Below, piece after piece: positions 2,123 through 29,568 of a stretch of 29,716 bases of DNA. Made by a program: the position numbers and the translations under genes. The notes under the pieces are model-generated. The model was not told the DNA's origin and did no database searches. It worked only from the letters and a program-made list of their open reading frames with translations. The stretch is from a virus: positions 1 to 29,716 of the IMG/VR virus record IMGVR_UViG_3300043595_000016. One strand, written 5' to 3'. Each line of letters starts with the position of its first letter. Position 1 is the stretch's first letter.

Positions 2123-3025
2123 CTACCTCGTCTCGATCAGCGGGTCGCCCATGACCCGCTTGGATGTCTGGAACAGCCAGCGCGCGGCGTCCTGCGCGGC
2201 GAGGTAGGCGTCGAAGACGGCCTCGTCGCAGCGGATCGGGAACGCTTCGCAGCTGTCGGGGGTGATGTGGATGGCCAGCCCGGTATCAACGTCAGGAACT
2301 GGCTGCGCCATGGCGCGCTCTTCGGGCCCGAGCAGGTAATAGCGACGGCGGAACTTCTCCATCCGTCGCGGGCGCCACACGGCGGCGTGCTTCGCCCAGC
2401 GGTAGGCGGCCAGCTGCAGGCCAACCTGCTCCGGGTACGGGGTGGTCGGGTTGCCGCGGGCGTCGACGCTCTTGCGGCTGCTCTTGTAGTCGGCGATGTA
2501 GCGCACGCCCTCGATGGTCAGGAAGGCATCGGCGGTGCCGGCGTAGCCGAGCTCGGGGTGATAGACGGCGACCTCGGTGGCCTGGTACGCCGGGCTGAAG
2601 CGGTCCAGCCACTCATCGAAGCGGTCGAGGAAGGGCCTGACCTCCGGATCCACCACCGGGCGTGTGCCGGTCAGCGCGTACTCCTCGCACGCCTTGTGCA
2701 CCAGCTCGCCCAGCTCGGTGGCCGAGCGGATGCCCTTCGGCTTGCGGAGGCGCGCGTCGCGCAGCCACTTCACGGCCTGACAGGTGGCAGCATCGGTGTG
2801 CGTGCACTCGGCCTCGTCGTCGGCCAGCATCGCCTGCCACGTCTTGGTCGAGTGGACGGCAGCCAGCGCTGCCTGCTCGCTGGCCCAGTACATCAGCGCC
2901 GGCTTGTCGAGGGCGCCGATGATGGTCGTCACGCTCCACAGCTCGAGGTCGCCCTGCTCAGGCGTAGCGTCCTCGATGGCAGCCTGGCCGAGCGCCGGGA
3001 CCTGCTCTGCGGCGAGGGCGTTCAC
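2123..3025 (-). CDS. RecB/Cas4-like PD-(D/E)XK exonuclease, 300 aa
   Basis: The PD-(D/E)XK nuclease core is visible in the middle: ELGELVHKACEEYALTG (helix I with H), then GYAGTADAFLTIEGVRY with the first acidic residue, IADYKSS as the D-x-K motif, and EQVGLQLAAYRWA as the QxxxY helix. This matches phage exonucleases of the RecB/Cas4 type that act on DNA ends in recombination or replication. I see no four-cysteine Fe-S cluster as in true Cas4. The GTG start at 3025 overlaps the TGA of the upstream gene (GTGA); the open frame continues to 3112 but overlaps that gene. It lies directly upstream of the RDF-like gene, suggesting a joint DNA-processing function. Confidence 0.85.
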   Translation of the reverse strand: MNALAAEQVPALGQAAIEDATPEQGDLELWSVTTIIGALDKPALMYWASEQAALAAVHSTKTWQAMLADDEAECTHTDAATCQAVKWLRDARLRKPKGIRSATELGELVHKACEEYALTGTRPVVDPEVRPFLDRFDEWLDRFSPAYQATEVAVYHPELGYAGTADAFLTIEGVRYIADYKSSRKSVDARGNPTTPYPEQVGLQLAAYRWAKHAAVWRPRRMEKFRRRYYLLGPEERAMAQPVPDVDTGLAIHITPDSCEAFPIRCDEAVFDAYLAAQDAARWLFQTSKRVMGDPLIETR

Positions 3026-3252
3026 CGGCCTTCGGCCTGCCACACTTCGAAGCTGGTTGCGTACTGGTCGCGCCAGGCGCTCTCCGGCAGGTCCTCGTGG
3101 ACGTCGGCGCACGGCTCGGCGGTGCCGTCGCTATGGACGTGGATGGCGTCAATCAGCCCCTTTGTTTCATGGCGGGACAAGGACCCTGTGCGCGGCTCTC
3201 CCGCGCCACCATTCGGGGCTGACTGTTCAATGGCGAGGACTGCGAAGGTCAT
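3022..3252 (-). CDS. Small hypothetical protein, 76 aa
   Basis: ATG at 3252 overlaps the TGA of the upstream membrane-protein gene as ATGA; its TGA overlaps the GTG of the exonuclease. Starts MTFAVLAIEQSAPNGG and ends FEVWQAEGR. The C-terminal half (WRDQYATSFEVWQAEG) is rich in aromatic and acidic residues. No transmembrane segment and no family recognised. Retained because of the exact coupling at both ends. Confidence 0.7.
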   Translation of the reverse strand: MTFAVLAIEQSAPNGGAGEPRTGSLSRHETKGLIDAIHVHSDGTAEPCADVHEDLPESAWRDQYATSFEVWQAEGR

Positions 3253-26104: not shown

Positions 26105-26514
26105 GGTGCATCGAGCCCTGGCCGTGGCAGCGTCTTCGGTGCGGTGCGCAGGATCTCGGTGATGCTGATCGCGTCGGCGGTGCGGTCGCCGCTCGAGCGC
26201 CAGATGCCGGCGAACACCCCGGGCACCTGGTCGAGCTCGCCCAGCCAGGCGCGCTGCTCGTCGGTGGCATCGTCGGGCGGGACCTTGACCTCGATGGCGT
26301 AGGCGCGGCCACCGCGCACGGCGAAGACGTCCGGCCAGCCGGAGTCGGCACCCCAGTGATCGGTCCGCGAGTCGTGGGTGACGGTGACGCGGTACTCGAG
26401 GCTGTGGGCGATCGTGATCCACAGCTCGACCAGCTGCCTATGCGTCGGCGTCCAGGTCGAGCGCATGGCGTCGGGGATGATGTCCTCGGCCTTGCGGCGC
26501 CAGGGTGCGGGCAT
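26101..26514 (-). CDS. VRR-NUC-type nuclease, 137 aa
   Basis: The VRR-NUC signature is visible: GADSGWPDVFAVRGGRAYAI (GxPD), EVKVPPDDATDEQRAW (ExK and the Gln) and LGELDQVPGVFAGIWR. This PD-(D/E)XK family includes phage Holliday-junction/structure-specific nucleases. The first ~25 residues are basic (PAPWRRKAEDIIPDAMRSTW). Coupled on both sides, next to an RHH protein. Confidence 0.82.
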   Translation of the reverse strand: MPAPWRRKAEDIIPDAMRSTWTPTHRQLVELWITIAHSLEYRVTVTHDSRTDHWGADSGWPDVFAVRGGRAYAIEVKVPPDDATDEQRAWLGELDQVPGVFAGIWRSSGDRTADAISITEILRTAPKTLPRPGLDAP

Positions 26515-26711
26515 CAGCTCGGCTGCCTGAACACAGACTCGACCGCATCGATGACACGCTGCGCCAGCCCGTTGGCCTCGAGGTCGTCGCGCTGAAACAG
26601 GCGGCGGCGGACGACTGCACCGATCGACCGATCCGTGCGTCCAGCCTCGTCGTTGAGGAAGTCGTACTCGCGTTGCGTGACTCGGACGGAGAGGATGACG
26701 TCTCGCCTCAT
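26514..26711 (-). CDS. Ribbon-helix-helix DNA-binding protein, 65 aa
   Basis: MRRDVILSVRVTQREYDFLN is the beta strand and helix one; EAGRTDRSIGAVVRRRLFQR the second helix of a CopG/Arc-type RHH dimer. Residues beyond 42 form a helical extension. It binds DNA, perhaps regulating the operon or the nearby repeat array. TGATG overlap with the nuclease gene, ATGA with the HNH gene. Confidence 0.78.
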   Translation of the reverse strand: MRRDVILSVRVTQREYDFLNDEAGRTDRSIGAVVRRRLFQRDDLEANGLAQRVIDAVESVFRQPS

Positions 26712-27046
26712 TCAGCCGCCCTCCGGCTGAAATCGGCGGTCGGGACGGACCATCGCGAGTCCTGGGGGGATATTTTCCGGAGTGGGCCTGTACTGTGGTG
26801 GGTGCCTCTTAAAAAACGCGAAGGCAGGCCGCGCGCTCCTTTAACTTGATTGCAACGCATGCAGGCGGCTTGGAGGTTGTCGGGCGTGGCCAGCCCGCCC
26901 CATGCCTTCGGGTGCCGATGGTCGACCGTGGTGGCCACCAGGGTGCAGCCATCCAGCCGCAGCTGGCATTCGTAGTTGTCTCGGATCAGGACCTCTCGAC
27001 GAGTCCGTTCCTCGGAGTAGGTCCAGTGGCGTTGCTGCTTGCTCAT
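26708..27046 (-). CDS. HNH endonuclease, 112 aa
   Basis: RREVLIRDNYECQLRLDGCT and TTVDHRHPKAWGGLATPDNL then QAACMRCNQVKGARG contain the HNH core (D-H, N, and C-x2-C pairs framing the zinc). Phages of this type often use a small HNH protein with terminase in packaging, but here it is in the replication block far from terL, between the ATPase/iteron region and the RHH gene. ATG at 27046 overlaps the upstream TGA. Confidence 0.85.
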   Translation of the reverse strand: MSKQQRHWTYSEERTRREVLIRDNYECQLRLDGCTLVATTVDHRHPKAWGGLATPDNLQAACMRCNQVKGARGLPSRFLRGTHHSTGPLRKISPQDSRWSVPTADFSRRAAE

Positions 27047-27255
27047 TGGACGCTCGCCGATCCCGGACCGGACACCCCTCTATAGAGGGGGGGTGTCCGT
27101 CCGTCCGAGGGGGTTTCGCTGTCCGTCTGGAGCGGACAGGAATCCGGACACGATTGAGCGTGGATCGGACACCGGTCGGACAGATCACCGGACATCGCCG
27201 AAATAAGGCCGGAAAGGGGCTCGGACACTTTCGCGGACACTTTCCGAGCGTTCAT
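27043..27255 (-). CDS. Small protein carrying the CGGACA repeat array, 70 aa
   Basis: ATG at 27255 overlaps the ATPase TGA, and its TGA overlaps the HNH ATG, so it fits the coupling chain. The protein is odd: KVSAKVSEPLSGLISAMSG, DRCPIHAQSCPDSCPLQ, then SETPSDGRTPPLYRG; the repeats appear as V-S/M-S/L-S or C-P depending on the codon frame. It may be a coupling ORF kept open over a DNA element rather than a functional protein. Confidence 0.5.
   Translation of the reverse strand: MNARKVSAKVSEPLSGLISAMSGDLSDRCPIHAQSCPDSCPLQTDSETPSDGRTPPLYRGVSGPGSASVQ
27069..27099. repeat. Long imperfect palindrome at the edge of the repeat array
   Basis: CGGACACCCCTC and GAGGGGGGGTGTCCG face each other around TATA; apart from a few extra G's in the run, the arms match. 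It could form a 12-bp cruciform or be a binding site for a dimer, and it ends in three overlapping GTCCG units (27095-27107). Confidence 0.6.
27069..27239. repeat. Iteron-like array of ten CGGACA motifs (candidate origin)
   Basis: Eight direct copies of CGGACA begin at 27069, 27133, 27145, 27166, 27177, 27189, 27222 and 27234; two inverted copies lie at 27094-27099 and 27120-27125. Neighbouring direct copies are 12, 21, 11, 12, 33 and 12 bp apart, close to multiples of the helical turn. The last two copies share the longer unit CGGACACTTTC. Copies fall in different codon frames, so selection is on DNA. Position after the ATPase gene suggests an origin or a regulator-binding array. Confidence 0.65.
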
Positions 27256-28460
27256 GCCACGTTCGACCATTGCTCGCCCGCCTTGGCGAACTTCGGAGGC
27301 TGGGCGCGCAAGCCTCGACGAAGGGCCTTGCCGATGGTGTCGGGCTTGGGTGGATCGGCTTCGTCGTCGGGGTCTAGCTCGTGAAGCGCAGCCACGATCT
27401 CCTTGATCGTCATGCCGTGATGGCCGACCATGACCTCGCTGATCCGCCTGGACAGGTGCTCCGAGAACGACGTCTCCCCGACGTCGACCGGTACGCCCTC
27501 CTTGTCGAATGTGATCGCCACTTTCTGGGGCTGCAGCGGCGCGTAGTTGTTGTGCTTGCGGTGCTGCAGGATCACCACGCCGGCATCGGCCTTCAGGCTG
27601 TAGGTGGTGCGGCTCAGGTTGTGCCAGAAGATCGACCCGAATGGGTAGCGCAGGTCGTCGGCCTTGGTGACATGCGCCAGGCTCAGGACGGGCAGCCCGA
27701 TGAACTCGAGGGCCCCGGCGTACAGGCTCACCGATTCGGGCTTGAGGGGGTCGGATCCGGCGCAGGCCGGCACGATCGAGTCGATGACCACGTAGTCGGC
27801 GCCGAACTCGATGGCCAGCTGGCGGATGTCCTCGGCCTGCGCCCACAGCGCACCGCGCTTGCCGCCCCAGGCGGCGGTCAACGGTCCGACGTGCAGAACC
27901 CTGTCCAGCATGGCCGGGCCGCCGATACCGGCGATGCGCCGCGCCCATTCGTCGGGATGGTTCTCGTAGTCGAGGATCAACACCCGCTTGTCGGCCTTCA
28001 GCAGCTCCACGATCCACATCGCCGACAGGGTGCCCTTGCCGACGCCTCCGGTGCCGTACAGGATGCTGTGGCCCAGCGGATCGAGATGGCCGATCAACAT
28101 CGGAGGCGGTGGGTCGGTGCTCACCATGGCCAGCACCCGAGCTCCCAACCGCGCCCCGATGCCAGAGGCCAGCATCTCCTCCGGCTCGTAGCGCAGGCGG
28201 TCGACGTAGTCCTTGGATTCGTCCAGGGCCGCCTGGGCGCTGGTACGCAGCTCGGCGATTCCGGTCGTGAGCTCCAACTTCAGGCGCGCCGGCATCCTGG
28301 CCAACGCCGCTGCACCGCGCTGCCAGTCCTCGAGGTCCACGTCGGTGGGCTCGACCGGGTCCCGGGCGAATGGCTCCGCGGCATGCCCGTTCAGCGGCGC
28401 TACCGGGGCGCGTTTCCGCGGTCGCGGACGTACTGGGGCCTGATCGGGCTCGGGAAGCAT
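27252..28460 (-). CDS. RepA/RecA-like AAA ATPase (replication protein), 402 aa
   Basis: The P-loop is HSILYGTGGVGKGTLSAMWI (Walker A GTGGVGKGT, near residue 140); LILDYENHPDEWARRI (the acidic residue after strand 2) and FGADYVVIDSIVPACAG (Walker B) follow, then VLSLAHVTKADDLRYPFGSI and VVILQHRKHNN, as in AAA_25/RepA-type hexameric helicases or helicase loaders. Residues 1-~100 are a Pro-rich start and a helical domain; the C-terminal ~90 residues resemble a small winged-helix (MTIKEIVAALHELDPDDEAD ... IGKALRRGLR). No DNA polymerase is encoded, so this is likely the phage replication initiator/helicase with the host replisome. ATG follows the upstream stop by 3 nt. Confidence 0.82.
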   Translation of the reverse strand: MLPEPDQAPVRPRPRKRAPVAPLNGHAAEPFARDPVEPTDVDLEDWQRGAAALARMPARLKLELTTGIAELRTSAQAALDESKDYVDRLRYEPEEMLASGIGARLGARVLAMVSTDPPPPMLIGHLDPLGHSILYGTGGVGKGTLSAMWIVELLKADKRVLILDYENHPDEWARRIAGIGGPAMLDRVLHVGPLTAAWGGKRGALWAQAEDIRQLAIEFGADYVVIDSIVPACAGSDPLKPESVSLYAGALEFIGLPVLSLAHVTKADDLRYPFGSIFWHNLSRTTYSLKADAGVVILQHRKHNNYAPLQPQKVAITFDKEGVPVDVGETSFSEHLSRRISEVMVGHHGMTIKEIVAALHELDPDDEADPPKPDTIGKALRRGLRAQPPKFAKAGEQWSNVA

Positions 28461-28538: not shown

Positions 28539-29128
28539 CGGGCCTCTCGGGACGTGGCGGCGGTGAGACGGGCACGGAATGCGTTGCCGATCCACTCGTC
28601 GGAGTAGTGCCAGTCACGAGCCTTCTCGATCAGGTCGTCCAGCTCGACGGACGGTGCCGCAGCGGACTCGAATCGAACGTGACAGGTACAGCCGATGTCC
28701 TCGCCTAGATGGAGCGGGTCGATTCCGCAGTTGATGTCATGCTCTGGTTCGGACGGTGCCGCAGCGGAGCGGGCGGCTAGAGCTACCAGACGAGTCCATT
28801 CCGCTCGCTTCGTGCCATCCGGCTCGTAGAGCGGCACCATCATGTAGCGGCCGTTGTAGTCGCCCGAGGCGGTCTCGATGACTGCCTTCGCTACCTCGAT
28901 GAGGTCCAGCCCCGCAGTAGGACCGGCTGCGGCCTCTCCGACGAGGACCAGCCCGCGATCCCGCATCCACTCGCTGACCCACGTTCGCCAGAACTCCTCG
29001 TCCACGATGATGGTCGCTGGCATCGCCTGACCGATCGCGCTCCGAATGTCGGCTGCCAGGGACGTGGCGAAGATCGGTGCCTGTGGCTCCACAGATGCGG
29101 GGCTCGTTGGTGGGGTGTCAGCGGTCAC
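28535..29128 (-). CDS. Hypothetical protein, 197 aa
   Basis: GTG at 29128 overlaps the methyltransferase TGA (GTGA). Segments: LAADIRSAIGQAMPATIIVD, EEFWRTWVSEWMRDRG, AKAVIETASGDYNGRYMMV and a Cys/His part, EHDINCGIDPLHLGEDIGCT-CHV, then DWHYSDEWIGNAFRARLTAA. The pattern of short conserved pieces joined by Ala/Pro/Ser linkers (AAAPSEPE, SAAAPSVE repeats) suggests several small modules. No family recognised. Confidence 0.7.
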   Translation of the reverse strand: MTADTPPTSPASVEPQAPIFATSLAADIRSAIGQAMPATIIVDEEFWRTWVSEWMRDRGLVLVGEAAAGPTAGLDLIEVAKAVIETASGDYNGRYMMVPLYEPDGTKRAEWTRLVALAARSAAAPSEPEHDINCGIDPLHLGEDIGCTCHVRFESAAAPSVELDDLIEKARDWHYSDEWIGNAFRARLTAATSREAR

Positions 29129-29568
29129 GATGCGACCTCCTCGGACTCGGCTCGGAAGATCAGGAGCAGGCAGTCCACCGGGCTGTTGTGGCCCGCTCCT
29201 CTGTGGTCTGGATTGACGAACTTCGGACGCCCCTTGAAGTAGCGCAGGGTCGCGCCCATCTCCAAGGCGCGGTGGAACCAGCGAACGTTTGTCCGGGCCG
29301 GGACTAACAGCACAGCGAGATCCGCGCGGGCCGCCATCTCCACAAATGGAGCGATGTCGGACCAGGGCGGGTTGCAGAACACGCGCTCACCGACCCAGGG
29401 ACGAGGGTTGCTCGGAGTTGAGGCCACATCGAGCAGGGCGTTGTCGTCATCGGCTGCGCCGTCCAACGTAAAACCGAACTCTCGGTGCAGACCCGCGAAC
29501 AGGTCCGCTGGCGTCCCCCATGCTTGGTGGCGATCACCGCGATACCAGTCCGTGTACGTTCGGCTCAT
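29125..29568 (-). CDS. Phage DNA N6-adenine methyltransferase (Dam-like), 147 aa
   Basis: Matches the phage DNA N-6-adenine-methyltransferase family: DRHQAWGTPADLFAGLHREF, GFTLDGAADDDNALLDVAS, RVFCNPPWSDIAPFVEMA with the catalytic NPPW, then LLVPARTNVRWFHRALEMGA, RYFKGRPKFVNPD and SPVDCLLLIF. It would methylate adenine in phage DNA, for protection from host restriction or for regulation. ATG at 29568 overlaps the TGA of the gene that crosses the circle junction. Confidence 0.9.
   Translation of the reverse strand: MSRTYTDWYRGDRHQAWGTPADLFAGLHREFGFTLDGAADDDNALLDVASTPSNPRPWVGERVFCNPPWSDIAPFVEMAARADLAVLLVPARTNVRWFHRALEMGATLRYFKGRPKFVNPDHRGAGHNSPVDCLLLIFRAESEEVAS

Follow-up and report, generated by a model that had tools for sequence, protein, structure and literature searches.

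The Iteron Array

The question raised by this locus is why ten copies of one hexamer are crowded into the gap between two genes of a phage genome, and which protein, if any, would read them. The window analyzed here, IMGVR_UViG_3300043595_000016, is an entire IMG/VR virus genome record of 29,716 bases, and it is the genome of a temperate tailed phage, as it carries portal, capsid, tape measure, and integrase genes. The iteron array spans positions 27069–27239, is not assigned to a strand, and is composed of ten CGGACA copies, eight on the plus strand (starting at 27069, 27133, 27145, 27166, 27177, 27189, 27222, and 27234) and two inverted copies on the minus strand (27094 and 27120). An earlier sequence-only reading had listed the same extent and counts and spacings of 12, 21, 11, 12, 33, and 12 bp, all of which are exact on recounting. 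The array occupies the gap between the stop codon of a helicase gene (27252–28460, minus strand) and the start, at 27046, of an HNH endonuclease gene on the same strand. Along the reading direction of the helicase gene, the array starts 12 bp past the stop codon, proceeds with direct-iteron spacings of 12, 33, 12, 11, 21, and 12 bp, and terminates in a 16-bp palindrome with inverted iterons on both sides.

The repeats are very probably the site at which copying of the phage DNA starts, an inference made because the array lies behind a helicase gene, because this layout recurs in dozens of phages, and because two residues of the helicase co-change with the repeat. The more specific reading, in which the array is the initiator-binding part of the replication origin of a temperate tailed phage and is bound by the winged helix of the helicase itself, is given a probability of roughly 0.86 in the absence of replication or binding data.

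Chance clustering in a GC-rich genome can be regarded as refuted. Across the whole window, CGGACA shows no enrichment (27 copies versus 28 expected), as this explanation would have it, but its clustering is extreme. Nowhere else in the 29.7 kb scanned does any 6-mer reach ten copies within 300 bp, and in Markov shuffles of the array region the commonest 6-mer reached a mean of 3.3 and a maximum of 7 copies, compared to the ten observed for CGGACA. Within-locus controls and conservation of arrays in dozens of relatives likewise argue against chance. GC skew across the window is flat and uninformative on the position of an origin. A second motif resembling TTGAGCGTGAA / TTCACGCTCAA was seen by eye between iterons, at 27152–27164 and 27245–27252 of the window and also in the arrays of L002, L004, and L007.

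The Helicase and Its Predicted Winged Helix

The gene preceding the array encodes a 402-residue RecA-like protein whose only recognizable domain is AAA_25 (Pfam E = 4.9e-11); it has no primase domain and, in particular, no N-terminal AEP primase. The AlphaFold2 model (mean pLDDT 83.9) has a RecA/KaiC-like core, and Foldseek places it in the RecA/KaiC/RadA fold. In homologs, this core is combined with an N-terminal DnaB_N domain (L005 and L010, E = 9e-32), a Toprim domain (L012, Toprim_3, 8e-11), or a Prim-Pol domain with PriCT_1 (L015 and L024, Prim-Pol 5e-40). Judged from these domain partners, the AAA_25 protein is a replication enzyme, and its distant relatives bear the annotation 'helicase RepA family protein'. 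DNA and protein searches of cultured phages and plasmids with this helicase returned no match, while a primase query run as a control worked. The nearest relatives of the helicase are found in Chloroflexota MAGs (L005–L007 and L042), not in actinobacterial phages, and the host may for this reason be a Chloroflexota bacterium.

The identity of this protein bears on a further explanation, in which the array is a parS-like partition site and the P-loop ATPase a ParA-type segregation protein. Weak CbiA/ParA P-loop matches to the helicase are consistent with such a role, and some mycobacteriophages have a parS locus of five direct repeats downstream of repA (PMC7157519). The RecA/KaiC-like fold and the homologs with DnaB_N, Toprim, and Prim-Pol domains argue against it, as does the lack of any ParB-like gene found in the neighborhood. 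In addition, an integrase is present, so that partition of the prophage would be unneeded. A partition site is thus considered very unlikely.

Returning to an origin read by the helicase, the part of the protein proposed to contact DNA is its C terminus. Residues 325–402 (27255–27488, minus strand) are predicted to fold into a winged helix, with an H-H-H-E-E order of secondary structure elements in the AlphaFold2 model and a mean pLDDT of 87.7 when modeled alone. Foldseek matches to the last ~75 residues are winged-helix proteins, and profile matches are to Zα (Zalpha) winged helices. The putative recognition helix comprises residues 373–385 (codons 27306–27344, minus strand) and includes Gly377 and Lys378 (27327–27332), the residues that change with the variable iteron bases.

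Conservation of the Layout in Related Phages

In the first three relatives, an array is located right behind the helicase stop codon, with motifs TGTCCG, TGTCGCG, and TACCCCAA. In the wider set, the region downstream of the helicase gene could be used for 120 non-redundant homologs, and 52 of these have a significant array (p < 0.01) directly 3′ of the helicase stop codon, usually as the strongest repeat cluster of the locus. The iterons themselves vary: CGGACA, CGCGACA, CGGGACA, TGGACA, GTGACA, CCGACA, and CAGACA are joined in further relatives by GCTGCA, TACCCCAA, GCTACA, GTAACA, CCCGGA, GGGGTA, GCACGC, and ACTTAC. Spacings between iterons of the same orientation have a period of ~11.5 bp (n = 541, 52 arrays), which bears out the helical phasing suggested from this phage alone. 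Comparison with relatives, which the sequence-only reading had put forward as a check on its proposal, is favorable with respect to the array, its phase, and its position, all of which are kept; the motif, however, is not kept and changes together with the protein.

The carriers of these arrays are tailed phages and prophages of Chloroflexota, Acidobacteriota, and marine Proteobacteria. Cultivated phages were reached through a distant relative, MW202867.1 (GTCCCA ×8). Alteromonas phages PB15 (GGTTCA ×13) and XX1924 (×12), Idiomarinaceae phage 1N2-2 (GGTACA ×11), Salicola phage CGphi29 (GGGACA ×6), and Roseobacter phage CRP-831 (GTATAA ×10) each have an array 3′ of the helicase gene (p = 0.003). 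No array follows the helicase gene in Arthrobacter phage AustinPowers, Mycobacterium phage Acadian, Pseudoalteromonas phage C7, or three uncultivated phages, and Gordonia phage Gustav, Salmonella phage Jersey, Escherichia phage K1H, and EBPR siphovirus 5 were left out of the array analysis, having little or no annotated gap after the helicase. Roughly one in two homologs has no array past the stop codon, and most of these are distant marine ones. There is also variability in placement: the array is displaced from the helicase gene in L019 (+594 to +752 relative to the helicase stop), L073 (+350 to +524), and L086 (−3153 to −2906). On the same scale, L134 has an unclassified ATGTCA cluster downstream (+679 to +922), and L164 has an equally unclassified 36-bp tandem repeat upstream (−2965 to −2713).

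The relatives also bear on the 70-aa open frame (27043–27255, minus strand) that, as had been reported, runs through the array of this phage and whose ATGA start overlaps the helicase stop. The repeats could in principle be coding, specifying a translationally coupled protein of ~70 residues with repeated VS/LS/SR motifs; 33/52 array loci, compared to 18/51 array-less loci, have an ATG or GTG overlapping the helicase stop, and frames through arrays are longer than in shuffles. These frames, however, range from 4 to >100 residues with no common sequence, and the iterons lie in different frames even inside one array, occur in both orientations, and follow the 11.5-bp phasing. Almost no weight is left for the coding explanation, and a coding function of the 70-aa frame is rejected as unlikely; it is probably not a gene. 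The claim that the DNA motif rather than a protein is kept was upheld, because the sites fall in two codon phases and no protein encoded there is conserved among relatives.

A Hairpin between Inverted Iterons

The 16-bp perfect palindrome CCCCTCTATAGAGGGG (27075–27090, not assigned to a strand), which the sequence-only reading had not recorded, is situated between the CGGACA at 27069–27074 and the inverted copy, TGTCCG, at 27094–27099. Its core pattern occurs once in the window, where 0.03 matches are expected. On the helicase-coding strand, an element composed of a pyrimidine tract, T[AT]A, and a purine tract is present in 38 of 55 arrays (5.2 expected) and in 10 of 51 array-less loci (6.2 expected). 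CTTTAG forms the core of 20 elements and CTAAAG that of 2, the family of cores to which this phage belongs being CTTTAG/CTATAG, and inverted iterons flank 28 of the 34 elements examined in this respect. The enrichment is observed directly, and the element is interpreted as a conserved origin hairpin. Melting, cruciform extrusion, and priming are candidate roles for it, none of which has been shown.

Conservation of the hairpin between inverted iterons also argues against the array being an operator, through which the winged helix of the helicase or an RHH protein would regulate the helicase operon or the downstream genes at the level of transcription, with replication starting elsewhere. The array does lie between two co-directional genes, phased repeats are found in operators too, and a NikA-like/RHH small protein is encoded close by (26514–26711, minus strand; a weak match). 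However, the array is 3′ of the helicase gene, away from its promoter, the downstream genes vary among relatives, and the gene that accompanies the array encodes a replicative helicase or primase-helicase. Neither the RHH gene nor the HNH endonuclease gene that adjoins the array (26708–27046, minus strand) is kept beside the arrays of relatives; a detectable homolog of either is found in no array-bearing relative. Both were rejected as partners of the array, since neither travels with it, and the RHH regulator array raised in the sequence-only reading is left without support. An operator in place of an origin is considered unlikely, although additional autoregulation is not excluded. The other proposal of that reading, an origin bound by the adjacent ATPase or initiator, is strongly supported by the comparison: the helicase-adjacent position is kept, primase or DnaB domains occur in homologs, and the winged helix of the helicase changes in step with the iteron.

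Co-variation of Winged Helix and Iterons

Co-variation was analyzed in the 39 array loci with iterons of the form N1N2GACA, with residues numbered as in the helicase of this phage. Among 254 columns ranked by mutual information (permutation z-score), the top column is residue 377 for N1 and residue 378 for N2, neighboring positions of the recognition helix. On an ATPase-domain-only tree, residue 378 ranks first of 252 in co-change with N1N2 (p = 6.3e-6) and residue 377 ranks second. Tyr377 is paired with T in 5/5 cases (for example, TGGACA), Gln378 with T in 4/4 (for example, GTGACA), and Lys378 or Arg378 with G at N2 in 23/27. Residues 377 and 378 together predict the iteron with an accuracy of 0.53–0.62, compared to 0.18–0.21 by chance; with close relatives excluded, the accuracy is 0.53, compared to 0.21 for the nearest ATPase domain and 0.18 for chance. 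A simpler ranking of close pairs places 377 and 378 near the top for N1 and 378 only 11th–16th for N2. A partial Mantel test of iteron against the whole winged helix, given the ATPase domain, was not significant (p = 0.09), and the column-level and tree-based tests are used in its place.

Two prophage-like copies in one Acidobacteriota genome, L053 and L058, illustrate a natural exchange. Their ATPase domains are 98% identical, and their DNA is ~92% identical up to ~150 bp before the stop codon. Past that point, the winged helices are 76% identical and the arrays cannot be aligned; the iterons are CCGGAC in L053 and TGGACA in L058, and residue 377 is Arg and Tyr, respectively. A similar joint divergence of winged helix and iterons is seen in L002 and L042. 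As far as sequences alone can tell, the winged helix and iterons change as one unit, and the difference between L053 and L058 is possibly a compatibility switch.

Proposed Mechanism and Comparison to Known Systems

In the proposed mechanism, the helicase, encoded just upstream, would bind the iterons via its C-terminal winged helix, with residues 377 and 378 reading the variable bases N1N2 of N1N2GACA. Phased binding is inferred to line up several protomers along the same side of the double helix, and at the distal palindrome the flanking inverted iterons would set helicases face to face, in a ring orientation and number that are unknown. The facing helicases may then open the CTATAG/CTTTAG hairpin, or extrude it as a cruciform, for loading and priming. 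The primase is inferred to be supplied by another protein or by the host in this phage; many relatives encode a primase-helicase fusion.

The arrangement resembles that of SaPI Rep and SCCmec Cch2, in which a C-terminal domain binds iterons directly downstream of the helicase gene (PMC7581432). Similar to those elements, the helicase gene is followed by an iteron origin with inverted repeats, here a proposed one, and a C-terminal domain is the reader, here predicted and with binding untested. The main differences are that the motor is a RecA-like AAA_25 protein rather than the staphylococcal Rep/Cch helicase type, that the iterons of this phage are phased at 11–12 bp with a conserved CTTTAG/CTATAG hairpin between inverted iterons, and that the carriers are the tailed phages and prophages described above. 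Pfam and Foldseek gave no Rep/Cch family match for this helicase. By this comparison, the phage origin would be organized like those of SaPI and SCCmec, but its different motor excludes it from that family.

The oriV of RSF1010 employs a RepA helicase, a separate RepC, and stem-loop priming sites, ssiA and ssiB, in a RepA/RepB′/RepC system (PMC4234260). A RepA-type RecA-like helicase, iterons, and stem-loops are common to both, those of RSF1010 being primase start sites. In contrast to RSF1010, the proposed reader here is the winged helix of the helicase itself and not a separate RepC, no RepC-like gene being found among the scanned neighbors, and a single central hairpin has iterons on its sides. 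PrimQH-type AEP primases combine a RepA-type helicase with a C-terminal winged helix that has been proposed as a possible origin reader (PMC5862659); iterons are not mentioned in that work. Relatives of the present helicase share the order of primase, RecA/RepA helicase, and winged helix, and this phage has the last two in that order. It differs in that the primase domain, present in L015 and L024, is missing, and in that an origin and specificity residues are now proposed. P4 α and pRN1 Orf904 are also helicases with a C-terminal winged helix at an origin, which in pRN1 is a stem-loop 3′ of the replication gene (PMC4234260), but their helicase is SF3-type. No published account of the iteron/hairpin layout was found in open-licence full text.

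Whether these loci amount to a widespread and previously undescribed class of phage origin is, in our estimate, evenly balanced. In such a class, a replicative RecA-type helicase would be its own initiator, two adjacent winged-helix recognition residues would set the origin sequence, and the winged helix would be traded together with the iterons as one module, around a conserved inverted-iteron/CTTTAG hairpin that would be the starting point of unwinding and priming. The C-terminal winged helices of primase-helicases had previously only been proposed to read origins (PMC5862659). Candidate origins, candidate residues for reading them, and natural pairs in which both are exchanged are now at hand, making the origin specificity of phage helicases directly testable, including in the cultivated Alteromonas, Idiomarinaceae, Salicola, and Roseobacter phages. 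For metagenomic phages, origins may be sought by inspecting the region directly 3′ of a RepA-type helicase gene for iterons and a hairpin. The rapid exchange of winged helix and iterons resembles the swapping of replicon modules under attack by origin-directed nucleases (PMC8263062).

Other genes of the record may be mentioned for completeness. A Dam-type adenine methyltransferase gene (29125–29568) is located two genes upstream of the helicase. An exonuclease (2123–3112) and a recombination-directionality-factor-like protein (729–2114) are encoded at the opposite end of the record, and the viral record may be circularly permuted.
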